41,696 nucleotides of DNA from Clostridia bacterium (GTDB taxonomy: Bacteria > Bacillota > DSM-521 > Neomoorellales > SLTJ01), in NCBI GenBank assembly GCA_004347685.1, contig SLTJ01000042.1, positions 1 to 41,696 of the forward strand. Reading direction: 5' to 3'. Shown here piece by piece: positions 5,386-41,383 of the stretch. The position numbers and the translations under genes were made by a program. The notes beneath the pieces were generated by a model that worked only from the letters and a program-made list of their open reading frames with translations, searched no databases and was not told the origin of the DNA. How positions within the stretch are numbered: position 1 is the first letter of the stretch; the number at the start of each line of letters is the position of its first letter.

Positions 5386-6225
5386 TCACCGCAGCATGGC
5401 TACGAAGCTGCGCAGCGGCACTCCCAGGGAGGCGGCCACCGGCGGGCATTTGGCCATCAGGCAGTAAAATATCCTCCCCTGCGGCGGCAATTCGGACAGG
5501 GATTCGTAATACCCCATGCCCTTGGCCACCACCAGGTCCGCCCGGCCGAATTCCTCCATAAATTCTTCCGAAGCCTGCTCCATGTCAATGCCGGGAGTGG
5601 CCGATCCCGTGGTTATCACCCGCCGGAACGCGGAAGCCAACCCGGCCTCTTCCAGGTCCGCCCGCGTGAGGTCGTTCTGCACCGGCTCCTCTTTAACCGC
5701 ATAGGTTACGGGCGCAAACTGCTCCAGGTACTTTACCAGGGGCAGGTCAAAAAAACACTCCCCGGCATTATCAGCCAAGTAGAGAATTCGCCCGGCCCGG
5801 GGCAGCCGGGAGGCAAAGGCGGCGCTGTCGTCTATGACAAATTCCACCCTGCGCCCCATGTCGGCCTTTACTTCCTCCAGGGGGCGGAAAAAGTCAATGC
5901 TATTCCCCAGAGCGGCGAACTCCAGGCAGGCCCGGAAATCACCTCCCGGCGTGGGGGCCAGTTCGGAGTATATTTCCCTGGCCATGGCTATTTCCTGCTG
6001 TTTCATGGCGCGGTAGGGGTCAGGATTCCCGGCCTTTTTCTTGACCGTCTCGTGCAGTTTGCCTGCAATCACGATTGAAACCCTGTCCAGACTGAAATTA
6101 TCCTCCAGGACCTTGAGGCCAGCGGCCACCGCCCGCTCCCTGGCGGGCATTTCCCCGGTGGCCAGTTCGGCGGCCTGGCGTACCAGCTTCTGCAGGCAGG
6201 GGTAACACTCGGCTACGACCTTCAC
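5386..6225 (-). CDS. DUF89 family metal-dependent damage-control phosphatase
   Basis: A 279-residue DUF89/ARMT1-fold protein. The family comprises Mn2+/Co2+-dependent phosphatases thought to remove damaged or excess phosphometabolites. Visible hallmarks are the N-terminal CxxC pair (ECYPC, C7 and C10) of the stand-alone prokaryotic subfamily, the GNSIDF loop, the DNAGE metal-binding motif, KGMGYYESL and the MAKCPPVA signature near the C terminus. Length is normal. The start is GTG at 6225; a GGAAAGGA site lies about 15 bases upstream, which is rather far, but the family begins at this point. The specific substrate cannot be read from sequence. Monocistronic, convergent with the DUF2512 gene. 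Confidence 0.93.
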   Translation of the reverse strand: MKVVAECYPCLQKLVRQAAELATGEMPARERAVAAGLKVLEDNFSLDRVSIVIAGKLHETVKKKAGNPDPYRAMKQQEIAMAREIYSELAPTPGGDFRACLEFAALGNSIDFFRPLEEVKADMGRRVEFVIDDSAAFASRLPRAGRILYLADNAGECFFDLPLVKYLEQFAPVTYAVKEEPVQNDLTRADLEEAGLASAFRRVITTGSATPGIDMEQASEEFMEEFGRADLVVAKGMGYYESLSELPPQGRIFYCLMAKCPPVAASLGVPLRSFVAMLR

Positions 6226-17407: not shown

Positions 17408-19219
17408 CTAAATGTAGGTGAGCCGTAGTTCCCCGTCCTTATCCAGATATAAGCGTACATTTCTTTCCTGGCGGTCAAAATGGTGCGCCCGGTCGCCTAC
17501 CTGGACCCTGGTATTCTCCCAGGCCAGATCGAGGGTTACGGTTGCCCTGGCCGGGACCTTCACCGACGTCTTTACCCCGGCCTTGGATCCTAGTTCACCG
17601 ATGCGCACGTTGCTCCCGGCTTCAATCTCCCCGCCCCGGTAACTCCTGACCACCAGCACCTCGCTCCCGGCCTGAATACGGGTATTATAGCAGCCGGCCC
17701 CCATGACCTTGACGCAACCCGTGCTGGCCAGCGTAGAGTTGAGGGCGTACCTGACCACCAGGTCGGCCGCGTCGGCAGAGGGCGGCGTAAATTCCGCTTC
17801 CATGTCGGCGCAAGCCTCGGCCAGAAGTCTGAGGGTATCCCTGCTCTTGACTGCCAGAGGGGCGTGGATCAGGGCCGTTTCCATCTGCCGGCAGAGAGCG
17901 GCAAGCTTATCACTCTGCAGTTCCGCCGGAAGGGGACGGATGGCCTTTTGCAGCCCGCGCACCAGGGAGGGCAGGTCGCGGAACTTCCCCTCCAGTAGAA
18001 GCCTCAACAGGGGGCCCGGGTCGCCCTGCAAATCTGCCTGCCGGAAGGCGGGATGCTGCTGGACCTGGTCAATGGCTGCCAGCAATTCTTCCAGCCGCCT
18101 ACGTAAATTTCCAAAGACCGGAGCGATTTCTTGGGTCAGGGCGGAGGCCCCCCCGGCAACCACCAGCGAAGAAAGGACGTTGCCCGAAATAGAGAGCGGG
18201 CCTCCGGCCTGGACGGTAGCGCCGGCCACATACCCTCCGATGTGGACATATCCGCCGGCCTGCACCGTCATCCGCTCCATAACGTTCCCGGCGATGCGAA
18301 CGTCGCCCTGGAAGGTAATGTTGCCGGACTCCAGGGCGACATCACCGGCGACTTCCAGAACTTCCAGGATCGCCAGGCGCACCTGCCGGCCTTTCCGCTG
18401 GGCTACGGGGCGGCCGGCGCACATGGCGATGGCCTCCATACCGTCAGGGCTCAGGCGGACACCATTTCCTGCGGCCAGCTCCACGTCTTTTGTGGCGGGA
18501 GGCGGAAGCACGTTGCCGAAAACGTCATGTCCGGGATCTCCCGGTACCGGCGGTATTTTACGCGCCAGGACCACGCCCGCCTCTACGGAAGTAAAGTAAA
18601 ACCGCTGGCGGAAGTCCACCTGTTCTTCTTCCCCCGGCCTCACAGGTGTCCTGTCTTCCAGGGAAAAGAATAATTCAACTGTACCCGGATCCCCGGGCCG
18701 TGGTGGAGTACCCCGGGCAATGGTTATCTCTCTTTCTTCTGTGCACTGCGCTGCTTCCTCGCAGGCCTGCCTGTCCACGCCGTACACTATGCCGTAACGA
18801 CTTAAGGCCTCCAGAATATCCTCAAGGGAGGCCGGCGGGAGGCACTCCCGGCTTTCCCGGACGGCAAGCTGCAGAACGGCCGCCGGGGGCATGGGGGTCA
18901 GCTCACGTTTTACGAGTACGTGGGGCTTTATTTTTATCACGGCCTCCAGCCCCCTGTTCCTGACTTCTACTTCCCAGTGGCCGGCACTTCTTTCCTCGGG
19001 AGCGCGCACTTCTATGCTGTCAGCCATGGTTACATGTGTGGGGCCCGTGCTGAGCTTCCCGTTCACATATAACTCAATATACGGGCCGGGCTTCAGCAGG
19101 GGGTAGGGACCGCCAGGCCGGTGCCGTACGTATACGCGCCCGCCGCTCACCCAGGCCAGCGGCTGTCCCATCTGATCAGTATTTTCCACTGCGGTAGAGA
19201 CCGCGACCGGTTCCGGCAT
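17408..19219 (-). CDS. FapA (DUF342) polymer-assembly protein
   Basis: A DUF342/FapA protein of about 603 residues. An N-terminal mixed region has the family signature GHDVFGN (about 245-255). A right-handed beta-helix of short Gly/Val repeats follows (GNITFQGDVRIAGNV, AGGYVHIGGYVAGATVQAGG), then a helical coiled-coil insertion (about 370-480) and a return to beta-helix before the C terminus. ATG at 19219 is preferred over GTG 19228, because GAGGGGGTGG ends five bases before the ATG. It is the last gene of the c-di-GMP riboswitch operon. FapA homologues affect flagellar or pilus assembly, but the molecular activity is poorly defined. Here it is the likely effector end of the switch. Confidence 0.92.
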   Translation of the reverse strand: MPEPVAVSTAVENTDQMGQPLAWVSGGRVYVRHRPGGPYPLLKPGPYIELYVNGKLSTGPTHVTMADSIEVRAPEERSAGHWEVEVRNRGLEAVIKIKPHVLVKRELTPMPPAAVLQLAVRESRECLPPASLEDILEALSRYGIVYGVDRQACEEAAQCTEEREITIARGTPPRPGDPGTVELFFSLEDRTPVRPGEEEQVDFRQRFYFTSVEAGVVLARKIPPVPGDPGHDVFGNVLPPPATKDVELAAGNGVRLSPDGMEAIAMCAGRPVAQRKGRQVRLAILEVLEVAGDVALESGNITFQGDVRIAGNVMERMTVQAGGYVHIGGYVAGATVQAGGPLSISGNVLSSLVVAGGASALTQEIAPVFGNLRRRLEELLAAIDQVQQHPAFRQADLQGDPGPLLRLLLEGKFRDLPSLVRGLQKAIRPLPAELQSDKLAALCRQMETALIHAPLAVKSRDTLRLLAEACADMEAEFTPPSADAADLVVRYALNSTLASTGCVKVMGAGCYNTRIQAGSEVLVVRSYRGGEIEAGSNVRIGELGSKAGVKTSVKVPARATVTLDLAWENTRVQVGDRAHHFDRQERNVRLYLDKDGELRLTYI

Positions 19220-19232
19220 CAGCGCCACCCCC

Positions 19233-19552
19233 TCACTCTGTATCCTCCGGGAAAAGCGCGTCCATCACCTGAAAGAAACCGATTAACTCCATACTCTCCC
19301 GGATTTCCCCGGGGATATTGGTCACCTTTAGGGTACGGCCCTGGGAGGCCAGTTCGCGGGCGCCATTCAGGAGCGCGCCCACCCCGGAGGAATCCAAAAA
19401 GGTGAGATCGGAAAGGTTGACCTCCAGCACGCGCGCCGGCTGGGCGCCATTTCTGCCTCCAGGATGCCGGCGCTGGTGAAATCCAGCTCGCCAGCCACCC
19501 ACAGGGTTGCCCGGTCACCCAGTTGCCTTCTCTTGATCTCCAAAGTCCCCAC
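19233..19552 (-). pseudogene. STAS-domain anti-sigma factor antagonist (second copy), frameshifted
   Basis: Two overlapping frames carry the halves of one STAS protein. From GTG 19552 comes MGTLEIKRRQLGDRATLWVA, on through GELDFTSAGILEAEMA; a +1-offset frame then gives QPARVLEVNLSDLTFLDSSG with the phosphorylatable Ser, and runs to FFQVMDALFPEDTE. Inserting one base near 19441 (a GGCGCCC run) joins them. The distance from ELD to DSSG then becomes 36 residues, identical to the paralogue at 20272-20586. Normally such proteins shuttle between a serine kinase (RsbW-like) and a PP2C phosphatase. The start lies 38 bases inside the phosphatase gene, so translation is coupled. Either a true one-base deletion or a sequencing error. 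Confidence 0.85.
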
Positions 19553-20303
19553 CTTCCCCCTGCACTCTTAAAATGACCAGGGTTACATCGTCCCGCTGTT
19601 CGTACCCGCAGGTAAAATAAGCTAGGCTGGCCAGAATGGTCTCCATGATGCCGGCGGCCGGCAAGGAGGCCGATTTTTTTACCGCCTCCTCGAGCCGGGA
19701 GCGTCCGAACTTTTCTCCGGTGGCGTTTTGGGCCTCCAGCAGACCGTCGGTGTAGAGCACCACCGTATCGCCCGGAACAAGCAGACGGGTCTGGACTGGC
19801 GGTACCGGGCCGTTCGCCAACAGGCCCACAGCCGCTCCCCGGTGGCCAAGGTAAGTAATCCGGCCCCGGCTGTAGATTAAAGGCGGGTAATGTCCGGCAT
19901 TGCTGCAGGCCAGGCAGCCAGAATCCCGCCGGAAACTGAGCAGACAGAAGGTGGCAAAGGAGCCAGCGCAGCGCAAATCCTCCCCGGCTACCAGATTTAG
20001 GTGCTCCATTATCTTACCGTGGTCTTCCTGGTAACGCAGCACCGAGCGGAAAACGCTGCGCAGGCTGAGCATCAGCAGGGCGGCCCGGAGGCCTTTACCC
20101 ATTACGTCGGCTATGGTGAGAAAAAGGGTGTCGGAGGTGATAGCAATGGCATCGAAGTAGTCGCCCCCCATAGCTCCGGCCGGGATACTCTGGCCAGCGA
20201 TGTCCGCGTCCGGCAGGTGTGGCAGGTTCTTGGGGAGCAGGAGGGCCTGGATCTCGCTGGCCGCGGCCAGTTCAGAATTGGGATCTATTTTCACCGGCCC
20301 CAA
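19515..20303 (-). CDS. PP2C-family (RsbU/SpoIIE-type) serine phosphatase
   Basis: A 262-residue stand-alone PP2C SpoIIE-family phosphatase with no sensory domain fused. Motifs include AGAMGGDYFDAI (metal Asp), TIADVMGKGLRAALLM (metal Asp and Gly), LACSNAGHYPPLIY, GDTVVLYTDGLLEAQN and the terminal QRDDVTLVIL Asp. All metal ligands are present. It should dephosphorylate the STAS antagonist(s), releasing them to bind the kinase. The start may be TTG 20303 (GAGGTGA five bases upstream) or GTG 20294. The gene begins inside the first STAS gene and ends inside the second, a tightly overlapped arrangement typical of partner-switching operons. Confidence 0.95.
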   Translation of the reverse strand: MGPVKIDPNSELAAASEIQALLLPKNLPHLPDADIAGQSIPAGAMGGDYFDAIAITSDTLFLTIADVMGKGLRAALLMLSLRSVFRSVLRYQEDHGKIMEHLNLVAGEDLRCAGSFATFCLLSFRRDSGCLACSNAGHYPPLIYSRGRITYLGHRGAAVGLLANGPVPPVQTRLLVPGDTVVLYTDGLLEAQNATGEKFGRSRLEEAVKKSASLPAAGIMETILASLAYFTCGYEQRDDVTLVILRVQGEGGDFGDQEKATG

Positions 20304-20586
20304 TCACCTCTGTCAATCCCACCAGGTAAAAGACTTCGACAATTTCCCCGGAAAGATTTGTAATACTGACCTCCCTGCCCTGCTCCCGCCAGGCCCGGTA
20401 AATCTCAAGCAGCCGATACATGCCGGTCGAATCAACAAAGGTCACCCCGGCAAAATCTAAAATCAGATACTGCTCAGGACCGGGAAGGGTTGCCCGCTAC
20501 AGGACGGTCAAACTCTCCATGTCCAGCTCTCCGGCCAGCACCACTCGGCGGGTGTTTCGTTGAGTTAAGAGTTGCAGGCTTAACAT
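20272..20586 (-). pseudogene. STAS-domain anti-sigma factor antagonist (first copy) with in-frame TAG
   Basis: From ATG 20586 the frame reads MLSLQLLTQRNTRRVVLAGE and on to LTVL, then TAG at 20497-20499 (codon 30). It continues open as RATLPGPEQYLILDFAGVTF and VDSTGMYRLLEIYRAW, to a TGA at 20272. Everything after the TAG is good STAS sequence, with the phosphoacceptor Ser in VDSTG. A single C-to-T change (CAG to TAG) explains the stop. The ATG overlaps the kinase stop by seven bases (ATGTTAA). No tRNA-Pyl machinery is visible here, so read-through is not supported by context. Without suppression the product is a 29-residue stub. Confidence 0.85.
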
Positions 20587-21326
20587 ACCAACTTGCCCTC
20601 CCTGGTTCCCTCCGTGAATTCCAGGATGAGACTGGTACCTCCTTGGCCTGTCGCCAGGTAGATGCGGTCGCTGTAGTAAAGCATCAGGGTGAAACCGCTT
20701 CCCAAGGACTTTTTGGTAGAGTAGTGCTGCATCAGGGTGGCCTTGGGTAGTTCCGCGAGTTTGATCCCCGGCCCAGTGTCTTCCACTGCCAAGCGTAGCC
20801 CGGACGGAACCTGCAAGGCCGCCCATTTCCCGTTTTGCGCATGCTTGACCACATTAGTCAGTGCCTCCGAAAGGCATACCAGTATCCCGTGGCGCCGCCT
20901 CAGGGGGAAGGTCTCGAGAAGGCCGGCCAGTACGGCCCGGGCCAGCTCCTGTACGGAAGGCGGCAGGTGGGCCGTGAGATCCCTGATCAGGTCCCTGTTG
21001 AGGTGTTCCCCCACTTGCTCCCCTCGCTGCACCGAGAGAATGTCGAAGACGTGCTTGTTGTCCCGGCCCCGCATCGGGACAGGCGCCAGTTCCATGGTGA
21101 GGTCTTCCAGGAGCTTCGCCCGGTAGTTCTGCCATAGGGGCGCATTCGTCTCCAGGCCCAGTTCCACCGTGTTCAAGATCAGCACCTGCGCGGGGTACTC
21201 CCTCCCGTCCTGGCCTTCCAGGGTAATATACACCGGCCGCAGCGGTTTCTGGGACAGGGGTCCGCGGCTTAGGAAATCCGGGCAGTCTTCACAATTTGTC
21301 TGCTGGCAGTCACGGCACTTGTTCAT
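20580..21326 (-). CDS. RsbW/SpoIIAB-like kinase with Cys cluster and PilZ-like region
   Basis: A 248-residue protein starting at ATG 21326 (GGGAGGTGAAGGAG directly upstream). Residues 4-17 are a compact cysteine cluster, CRDCQQTNCEDC, a possible metal site. Residues about 30-105 resemble a PilZ beta-barrel, with NTVELG in the place of the D/NxSxxG motif, but the RxxxR c-di-GMP motif is not evident. Residues about 115-240 are a GHKL ATPase: N box LSEALTNVVKHA, G1 VEDTGPGI, G2 GSGFTLML. This is the fold of serine kinases that phosphorylate STAS antagonists and sequester sigma factors. It follows the HD-GYP gene by 36 bases. No sigma factor gene is in the operon, so the final target is open. Confidence 0.85.
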   Translation of the reverse strand: MNKCRDCQQTNCEDCPDFLSRGPLSQKPLRPVYITLEGQDGREYPAQVLILNTVELGLETNAPLWQNYRAKLLEDLTMELAPVPMRGRDNKHVFDILSVQRGEQVGEHLNRDLIRDLTAHLPPSVQELARAVLAGLLETFPLRRRHGILVCLSEALTNVVKHAQNGKWAALQVPSGLRLAVEDTGPGIKLAELPKATLMQHYSTKKSLGSGFTLMLYYSDRIYLATGQGGTSLILEFTEGTREGKLVC

Positions 21327-21362: not shown

Positions 21363-22097
21363 CTATTCAGGTGCCCTGGCTTTAGCGCTTTGCAGGTATG
21401 CGGTTACCAGGCGGTCGAGCCTCCGGCTCTGGGCCTGTACCAGGGGGTGCCGCAGGTCGCCGAACATTTCCACCAGGCGGGCCAGCCACTGCCTTTCCCG
21501 GGCCAGCAGGGATTCTACTACGGCCTCTTCGCCGGTATCCGGTGGCCAGAAGCCGGAGCGCTCCAAGGCGTCCGCCAGGCAAGAGGCAAACTGGCTGCCG
21601 CGGCAGCGCCTTACCTCGGCGCGTACCTGGACAGGCGCCAGGGCCTTACGGTAGGCGCGGTCTACCGACATGGCGTCAATGGCGTCCGCCAGGGCGACGA
21701 TTTGGGCCAGGAACGGGATGCTCTCGCCCCTTACGCTCAGATAGCCTTTCCCGTCCCACCGCTCATGGTGATAGAGAACTATCTCCTGCAAAAGCCCGTC
21801 TAGTTTTCTTTCAGCCAGCAACCGGGCACCCTGTTCAGGGTGGCGGCGCATTACCTCCCACTCCCCGGTGCTCAGGGGCCCCGACTTGTACAGAATAGAC
21901 TTATCTACGTATATCTTGCCCACGTCGTGCAGCATGGCGCCGGGAAAAAGCACCTCGCGGGCTTCGCCCCATTGCAGCCCGAGCAGGGAGCCAAGGTAAA
22001 GGGAGAGGTTGGCTACCCCCAGGCTGTGGTCAAAAAGTCCGGGGTCGTAGGACCTGATGGCCTGGATGAGGTAGTTTACAGCTTCCGCTTGAGACAT
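21363..22097 (-). CDS. HD-GYP-type c-di-GMP phosphodiesterase
   Basis: A 244-residue protein beginning MSQAEAVNYLIQAI at ATG 22097 with AGGTGA at proper spacing; a longer frame to 22157 would run through the terminator. Metal and catalytic motifs are all present: FDHSLGVA, MLHDVGKIYV, RRHPEQGA, HHERWDGKGYL and ADAIDAMSVDRAYR. The canonical GYP tripeptide reads GYL, a modest deviation. The expected reaction is hydrolysis of c-di-GMP to pGpG/GMP. There is no receiver or transmembrane sensor domain. The C-terminal 75 residues form a helical tail that is duplicated, decayed, at 25608-25820. First gene behind a c-di-GMP riboswitch, so feedback is likely. Confidence 0.93.
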   Translation of the reverse strand: MSQAEAVNYLIQAIRSYDPGLFDHSLGVANLSLYLGSLLGLQWGEAREVLFPGAMLHDVGKIYVDKSILYKSGPLSTGEWEVMRRHPEQGARLLAERKLDGLLQEIVLYHHERWDGKGYLSVRGESIPFLAQIVALADAIDAMSVDRAYRKALAPVQVRAEVRRCRGSQFASCLADALERSGFWPPDTGEEAVVESLLARERQWLARLVEMFGDLRHPLVQAQSRRLDRLVTAYLQSAKARAPE

Positions 22098-22154: not shown

Positions 22155-22245
22155 CACGGCGGCAGCCTGGCGATCATAGCGCTACGAGCGCCGTAGACCC
22201 ATGGCTTTGCGCCCCCGCCTTTCGACGGGTTTGCCCTTATCGCGA
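22155..22245 (-). ncRNA. Cyclic-di-GMP-I (GEMM) riboswitch aptamer
   Basis: The minus strand reads AGGGCAAACC, then CGTCGAAAGGCG (P1b with GAAA tetraloop), then GGGGGCGCAAAGCCATGGGT, a variable second hairpin, and GCCAGGCTGCCG. These match in order the conserved blocks of the GEMM-I family: AGGGCAAACC, the GAAA loop, GRCGCAAAGCC and the closing GGnUnCCG. The second G of AGGG (equivalent to G20 of the Vc2 aptamer) is G, which favours c-di-GMP over the cGAMP-binding A variant. A terminator follows, so control is probably transcriptional; the on/off direction is not evident. Confidence 0.93.
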
Positions 22246-22412
22246 AAAAATGAGGTGGAGCAAAGTACGGTGCTCCTTACTCACGGCTAGAGAAAGTACA
22301 GGTGGGGAAACAGCAATATGCGATGTCTTAGAGGTAGGACAAATAAAAAACGACCACGCAAATTGCAGTTCAGGTGGGAATTCTCTACCAGGGAATGGGA
22401 GAAATGGTAATA

Positions 22413-22428
22413 CCCCCCCCCCCCCCCC
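22413..22428. repeat. Homopolymer of 16 C
   Basis: An uninterrupted run of 16 cytosines lies in the 370-base region between the divergent riboswitch operon and the second stalk gene. Runs of this length slip readily. It does not overlap the promoter I see for either side. The rest of 22246-22618 contains no gene. Confidence 0.85.
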
Positions 22429-22582
22429 GTGTAAAATTCAGAAATAAACATTGTACCACTCCTCCCATGAGGGGTAACTTAATGGATACTTCGACATAAA
22501 ATGCCAATTTCCTGCCTGTCATATCTTTTTTTTCGTGCTTGTTTTCCCCTGCCCAGTGTCCACGCCTGGCCGAAAATCTCAT

Positions 22583-40393: not shown

Positions 40394-40723
40394 CTACTTG
40401 GAACTCGATTTTGGGGGTTTCTTGGGGGTCGCAGGTGGGTTCTTTTTGTTTTCCGTCCAGGACACAACTCCTTTCCCGGTTTTTGGGGCGCCGGCATAGG
40501 CCGCCCGCGGCCAAGCCGGCGGTCGCGGCACCGGCAGGTTCAGAGCGGCCGAATGGTAGGGAGAAAGGAGGCGGCCAACCTCTTCCCGGGCCGCGGCCAA
40601 ACCGGCCAAAACATCCCGGCAGCGCGGGCAGGCCGCAAGGTGCGCGCCTACTTCCCGGCTCTCCCGTGGGGAAAGCTGCCCGTCCAGGTAGGCCAGGAGC
40701 CGGCCCTCGTCAAAACAGATCAT
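40394..40723 (-). CDS. Zinc-finger anti-sigma factor (ZAS type), soluble
   Basis: A 109-residue protein with the anti-sigma ZAS domain: LLAYLDGQLSPRESREV followed by HLAACPRC, giving the HxxxCxxC zinc ligands. Unusually there is no transmembrane segment; after a Pro-rich stretch the protein ends in a Lys/Pro/Ser tail. Most such anti-sigmas are membrane-anchored, so this is either a soluble redox/zinc-responsive form or 3' truncated. An 11-base direct repeat (CTACTTGGAAC at 40380 and 40394) sits exactly at its stop. The start overlaps the sigma gene by 14 bases, indicating coupled expression. Confidence 0.88.
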   Translation of the reverse strand: MICFDEGRLLAYLDGQLSPRESREVGAHLAACPRCRDVLAGLAAAREEVGRLLSPYHSAALNLPVPRPPAWPRAAYAGAPKTGKGVVSWTENKKNPPATPKKPPKSSSK

Positions 40724-41252
40724 CCTCGGTGCCTCCTTCCTCTTGGCGGTAGCGGGCCAGAAAACTCTTCTGGGCGCGGACGAGAATGGTGCCCACCGAG
40801 CCCGGCGCTACGCCCAGGGCTTCGGCGATCTCGCGGTAGGTAAAGCCCGCATGGCGCAGGAGCAGGGCCAGGCGCTCGCGCGGCCTGAGGCTTTCCAAAA
40901 CCCGCCGCACCCGCTGAACCGCGGCCTGGCGCATGGCCGCCTCCTCCAGGGGGACGACCTCGGGGTAATGGCGCCACACCCATTGCTCCTCGCGCTGGCG
41001 CCGGCGTTTCTCGCCGCGCAAGGCGTTTAAGGCGAGGCGACTTCCCACCAGGTAGAGCCAGCCCAAAAGGTTCTCTTCCCGCGGCGGGGGCGTGGTGTAA
41101 AGTTTAAGAAAGACGTCCTGGACCACTTCTTCGGCCACCGTCCGCTCGCCCACCAGGTACATGAGGTGGCGCACCACCTGGGCATAATAGCGGCGGTACA
41201 GCTCCTCGAACTCCTGCGTCCGCCTCACCGTTTCCGGCCTGCCGTCGACCAA
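40710..41252 (-). CDS. ECF-type RNA polymerase sigma factor
   Basis: An ECF sigma factor of about 180 residues. Region 2 has FEELYRRYYAQVVRHL and VAEEVVQDVFLKLY then LLGWLYLVGSRLALNALR; region 4 has LRPRERLALLLRHAGFTYRE and the helix-turn-helix IAEALGVAPGSVGTILVRA. The frame is open to 41354, but the first 34 residues do not resemble sigma N termini. TTG 41252 has AAGGGG 11 bases upstream; GTG 41228 is an alternative. First gene of the leftward locus, followed by its zinc-finger anti-sigma, then the exported protein and ABC genes, which are the likely regulon. Confidence 0.95.
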   Translation of the reverse strand: MVDGRPETVRRTQEFEELYRRYYAQVVRHLMYLVGERTVAEEVVQDVFLKLYTTPPPREENLLGWLYLVGSRLALNALRGEKRRRQREEQWVWRHYPEVVPLEEAAMRQAAVQRVRRVLESLRPRERLALLLRHAGFTYREIAEALGVAPGSVGTILVRAQKSFLARYRQEEGGTEDDLF

Positions 41253-41383
41253 CCTTTCTCGCCCCTTCCACTTATACAACACCGCCGCGCAAGGTCTTTG
41301 TGACAAGGGGTTACCCTCTCCGTCAGGATAATCGAATGTAAAAAAATTTAACAACCACCATTAAATGGTAATCTCTACCACAG

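Follow-up and report, generated by a model that had tools for sequence, protein, structure and literature searches.

In RsbW/RsbV/RsbU partner switching, a kinase phosphorylates a serine of a STAS-domain protein and a phosphatase reverses the modification (PMC8256260). Such modules can be lost in nature, as in Staphylococcus aureus 8325-4, where rsbU is naturally broken, and in the rsbU mutants described within hosts (PMC6748969). A different form of variable signaling is found in Clostridioides difficile, whose cmrRST operon lies downstream of a c-di-GMP riboswitch and a phase-variable invertible switch (PMC8844915).

We analyzed a 41,696-nucleotide stretch of DNA (the window) from a Clostridia bacterium (contig SLTJ01000042.1), which encodes on its minus strand, in the 5' to 3' direction, a c-di-GMP-I-GGC riboswitch, an HD-domain protein, a kinase, a STAS protein (STAS1), a SpoIIE-type phosphatase, a second STAS protein (STAS2), and a FapA/DUF342 protein. 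The block from riboswitch to FapA is one operon (Table 1). With the RsbU–RsbV–RsbW and SpoIIE–SpoIIAA–SpoIIAB modules of Bacillus, it shares a HATPase_c_2 kinase, STAS proteins with a DS(S/T)G serine, and a SpoIIE-type phosphatase. Unlike those modules, it places two STAS genes around the phosphatase, both of them broken here, is preceded by the riboswitch and followed by FapA, encodes a kinase whose orthologues combine Cys4, PilZ-like, and PAS-like parts, and lacks a cognate sigma factor within the conserved block (there is a sigma-70-like gene ~19 kb off, at 40710-41354). Our literature search returned no described operon of such make-up. The parallel with S. aureus rsbU would be the spontaneous loss of a partner-switch component, although in that species it is the phosphatase that disappears, with a drop in sigma B output, whereas here it is the STAS antagonists. 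Like cmrRST, the locus is a signaling operon with a c-di-GMP riboswitch and a candidate phase-variable element upstream; in cmrRST that element is a proven DNA inversion, whereas here it would be a homopolymeric G tract, and the encoded proteins are unrelated.

Table 1. Features of the partner-switching locus, in window coordinates.
Feature	Position	Strand	Remarks
Poly-G tract in upstream leader	22413..22428	-	16 G on operon strand
c-di-GMP-I-GGC riboswitch aptamer (RF03167)	22157..22244	-	73.3 bits
HD-domain protein, intact	21363..22097	-	mechanical ORF from 22157; likely start ATG ~22097
Kinase: Cys4 motif, PilZ-like N-domain (predicted), HATPase_c_2	20580..21326	-	mechanical ORF from 21359
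STAS1 gene, broken by in-frame TAG	20272..20586	-	
Premature TAG, codon 30 of STAS1	20497..20499	-	
SpoIIE-type PP2C serine phosphatase, intact	19515..20303	-	
STAS2 gene, broken by frameshift	19233..19552	-	
-1 frameshift site in STAS2	19436..19446	-	
FapA/DUF342 family protein, intact	17408..19228	-	final gene of conserved block

Searching with the kinase retrieved nine loci (L008-L016) from Moorella, Thermanaeromonas, Desulfallas, Desulfofundulus, and metagenome-assembled genomes, in which kinase, STAS1, phosphatase, STAS2, and FapA follow one another in identical order (the FapA gene of L008 is cut by a contig end). Of 18 related loci scanned, 14 carry a riboswitch of the same clan ahead of the module. 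Given the shared order and this riboswitch, the operon is a conserved one, from which the window departs. A variant arrangement occurs in L017 and L244 (genome G129), where FapA follows the kinase without STAS or phosphatase genes between; in L017, a STAS gene comes after FapA. Ahead of the riboswitch, four of the eight loci inspected (window ~22495, L008 ~2440, L141, and L237) carry the heptamer TGTCGAA, which resembles a Spo0A box.

The first-pass annotation of this DNA had described a STAS1 gene interrupted by TAG at its thirtieth codon with STAS-like sequence on both sides, and a STAS2 gene in need of one extra base near 19441. Both descriptions hold. Alignment with the nine relatives places STAS sequence on either side of the TAG, and the portion after the stop matches the Pfam STAS model by itself at 46.5 bits. 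In STAS2, a single X inserted where the frame changes yields a column-for-column alignment with the nine intact orthologues. The two genes do share the same distance from ELD to DS(S/T)G, as had been claimed, at 31 residues (counted from the D of ELD to the first S) rather than 36. The comparison with relatives, asked for beforehand, found both STAS genes open in 9/9 loci, the positions of the window's lesions being free of any TAG or shift. Relative to these orthologues, STAS1 and STAS2 are putative pseudogenes by broken frame, and the module is left with no intact STAS antagonist bearing a phosphorylatable serine: the DS(S/T)G motif is kept in both, and both frames are broken.

The phosphatase, HD, and FapA genes have open frames and retain their motifs, so that the phosphatase is intact as first described; its match to PF07228 (155 bits) assigns it to the SpoIIE-type PP2C enzymes of partner-switching modules. 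The kinase, also taken to be intact at first, is not. It still scores as an RsbW/SpoIIAB-type ATPase (PF13581, 34.2 bits against a cut-off of 27.4) with its motifs kept in the alignment, but its ORF spans only 259-260 aa, compared with 423-487 aa (stop-to-stop frames) in all nine relatives, where a middle region that reads by eye as PAS-like separates the N-domain from the ATPase domain. Aligned with these orthologues, the window kinase has lost, in frame each time, ~165 middle residues and, at another site, a stretch of 11 residues. An N-domain search of 398 genomes returned complete orthologues of 377-487 aa, the lower figure being that of an IS-interrupted gene (G004), and the 260-aa frame of the window's genome (G000) was the shortest in which N-domain and ATPase are still joined. 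The same in-frame deletion was not seen in any other genome with the two joined. With both deletions in frame and the ATPase motifs preserved, the short kinase may have remained active. For the N-domain, structure prediction gives a beta barrel with modest confidence (mean pLDDT 65.9), and the known structures closest to it are for the most part PilZ domains, with no match at E < 0.001; it is thus predicted to be PilZ-like, with no clear RxxxR motif and no Pfam match. Within this domain (20901-21326, minus strand), four invariant cysteines precede the PilZ-like barrel, which carries NxTxxG.

Breaks in the module are not confined to the window. Among 25 genomes with a recognizable module (those with an N-domain match in this orthologue group, plus G020, chosen by judgement), seven carry a break, the window's genome included, and each break is of a different kind; setting the window aside leaves 6/24. 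In a genome of the same family but another genus (G002), the HD gene is frameshifted and a deletion has fused the beginning of the kinase gene with the latter portion of STAS2; the ATPase domain, STAS1, and the phosphatase have gone with it, leaving FapA intact. Elsewhere, a transposase-bearing, IS3-like insertion lies inside the kinase ATPase domain (G004; L221 5395-6836), the same domain carries a small frameshift in G288, and the one-contig genome G350 retains ~45 kinase residues together with a STAS2 remnant. STAS2 lacks its 5' part in G055, with only the last 43 residues in frame, and the module FapA gene of the near-complete genome G015 is split by ~2 kb (C1:1377722-1381536). The breaks in other genomes are assembly calls, and those of G055 and G015, like the STAS2 remnant of G350, are known from coordinates only. 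Because the operon has been repeatedly eroded in related genomes, it appears to be dispensable in some lineages.

How far the STAS lesions themselves can be trusted depends on the background of similar lesions. From G000 we took a 1.58-Mb sample; its strand-filtered alignment with proteins encoded by G002, G011, and the named loci covered 353,709 bases. Judged by eye, the STAS1 TAG is the sole clean in-frame stop in these bases, the other flagged stops falling at alignment ends or in weak extensions. Four frameshift candidates emerged, one of which was an artefact of domain architecture; the remaining three, named by eye, lie in a multi-copy transposase-like gene, a gene with a further internal gap, and a crotonase-like paralogue, and two of them affect apparently mobile or foreign genes. 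When lesions were planted, 92% of stops and 50% of frameshifts were recovered. The probability that random lesions would strike each STAS gene is 4e-5 (2.7e-4 at the 95% upper rate), a figure that takes errors as evenly spread and leaves a local problem outside its reach. A large gene on contig 5 of G000 (L111 65-2378), ~90% identical to a copy in Moorella, carries a frameshift and is missing an internal segment.

These data bear on the possibility that the STAS lesions, or one of them, arose in sequencing or assembly and that the genes are intact in the organism. The assembly is a draft of 54 contigs, both lesions are single-base, the STAS2 shift sits within the GC-rich stretch GGCGCCC, and the sequence around the lesions is as conserved as local errors would leave it. 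Outside the lesions, identity to outgroups is similar for the window and its intact sister L008: 47.3 and 47.3% for the kinase, 40.3 and 38.8% for STAS1, 44.4 and 40.0% for STAS2, and 39.5 and 39.6% for the phosphatase. Since the window proteins show no excess divergence over their counterparts in L008, the STAS lesions appear to be either young or errors; a DNA-level search for near relatives gave short matches only. Against error, such lesions are few elsewhere in G000, a substitution that yields TAG would be an unusual mistake, and neither the kinase deletion nor the G002 deletion in the same operon can be a base-call error. We therefore regard error, which had been offered as an alternative from the start, as unlikely. 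Loss of the switch is the better supported of the two, on the strength of the low lesion density, a kinase lesion that no base call can produce, and the independent loss of the core in G002, even though the intact kinase that the original proposal assumed did not survive scrutiny.

Two further readings accept the lesions as real and leave the STAS proteins functional. STAS1 could be read through at its UAG and STAS2 translated by programmed -1 frameshifting, and decoding of this kind would account for the STAS-like character of both parts of each gene. Yet the genome search gave no PylS match above cut-off, and ARAGORN, run on the tRNA loci and on the sampled genome sequence, found tRNA-Sec (TCA) but no tRNA with a CUA anticodon. 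The first 120 nt of STAS2, which contain the shift, hold no slippery X XXY YYZ heptamer, and neither the TAG nor the shift occurs at these places in the nine orthologues. Read-through of UAG, floated earlier as a distant third option, is unsupported on these grounds and would in any case leave the STAS2 frameshift unexplained; the combined decoding scheme is extremely improbable. Scarcely better is the notion that the truncated pieces work as short proteins made from internal starts. The downstream parts do keep DS(S/T)G in open frames of 57-89 aa, but the opening strands and helix of the STAS fold are missing from them, their listed starts are all GTG, and no such form exists in any relative examined.

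We conclude that the window probably holds a recently inactivated partner-switching module and that the lesions probably record a real loss of a dispensable switch. By analogy with the described systems, the kinase would place a phosphate on the DS(S/T)G serine of a STAS protein, the phosphatase would strip it off, and the unphosphorylated STAS protein would hold the kinase or bind an output partner. FapA is a candidate for that partner, solely on account of its place beside the module in every one of these loci. With no complete STAS protein, kinase and phosphatase would have no substrate in the operon, and the output would then stay locked in its STAS-free state. Fixation of a first lesion would relax selection on the other components, which could explain why more than one has been hit. 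The only other STAS gene of the genome adjoins a SpoIIAB-like kinase and is presumably SpoIIAA, and the only other SpoIIE-type phosphatase lies within an 867-aa frame, presumably SpoIIE itself.

Upstream of the operon, a poly-G tract lies on the operon strand ~0.2-0.4 kb ahead of the riboswitch, at a conserved place and with variable length (7-19 G) in several genera (the window; L013 5809; L016 5857; L167 4717; L228, L232-L241, and L250). In some genomes, it is the only long G tract. In 13 module genomes, tracts of at least 12 G occur no more than 1.7 kb ahead of the kinase, against a total of only 0-14 such tracts per whole genome, and the product of chances for this placement is near 1e-22 when one genome per genus is counted. 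In G002, an assembly gap interrupts the tract, which reads on the opposite strand. Six Moorella-group loci have 11, 13, 14, 14, 16, and 18 G between flanks that are 87-91% identical on average, homopolymer lengths in assemblies being error-prone. A long tract at a conserved place whose length differs among close relatives is what a phase-variable homopolymer locus presents, and our limited literature search found no report of such poly-G phase variation for these bacteria. A short ORF that has a good ribosome-binding site (window 22287-22451, minus strand; L016 ~5806-6110) encloses the tract, and in the Moorella group the length of the tract decides the frame that comes after. A coding role is possible for this short ORF, in which the indels downstream of the poly-G are not multiples of three.

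The tract suggests slippage-prone regulation, perhaps a candidate phase variation combined with c-di-GMP control. More tentatively, the locus could be a contingency locus of thermophilic anaerobes, pairing the c-di-GMP riboswitch with a phase-variable poly-G, that is often disadvantageous and so repeatedly inactivated, with the window as one case; we consider this extended reading possible, at rather long odds. For the organism itself, the open kinase and phosphatase frames in G000 do not mean a working switch. More broadly, a conserved, c-di-GMP-linked partner switch of the Moorellales and their relatives that is so often found broken points to fluctuating or lifestyle-dependent selection.
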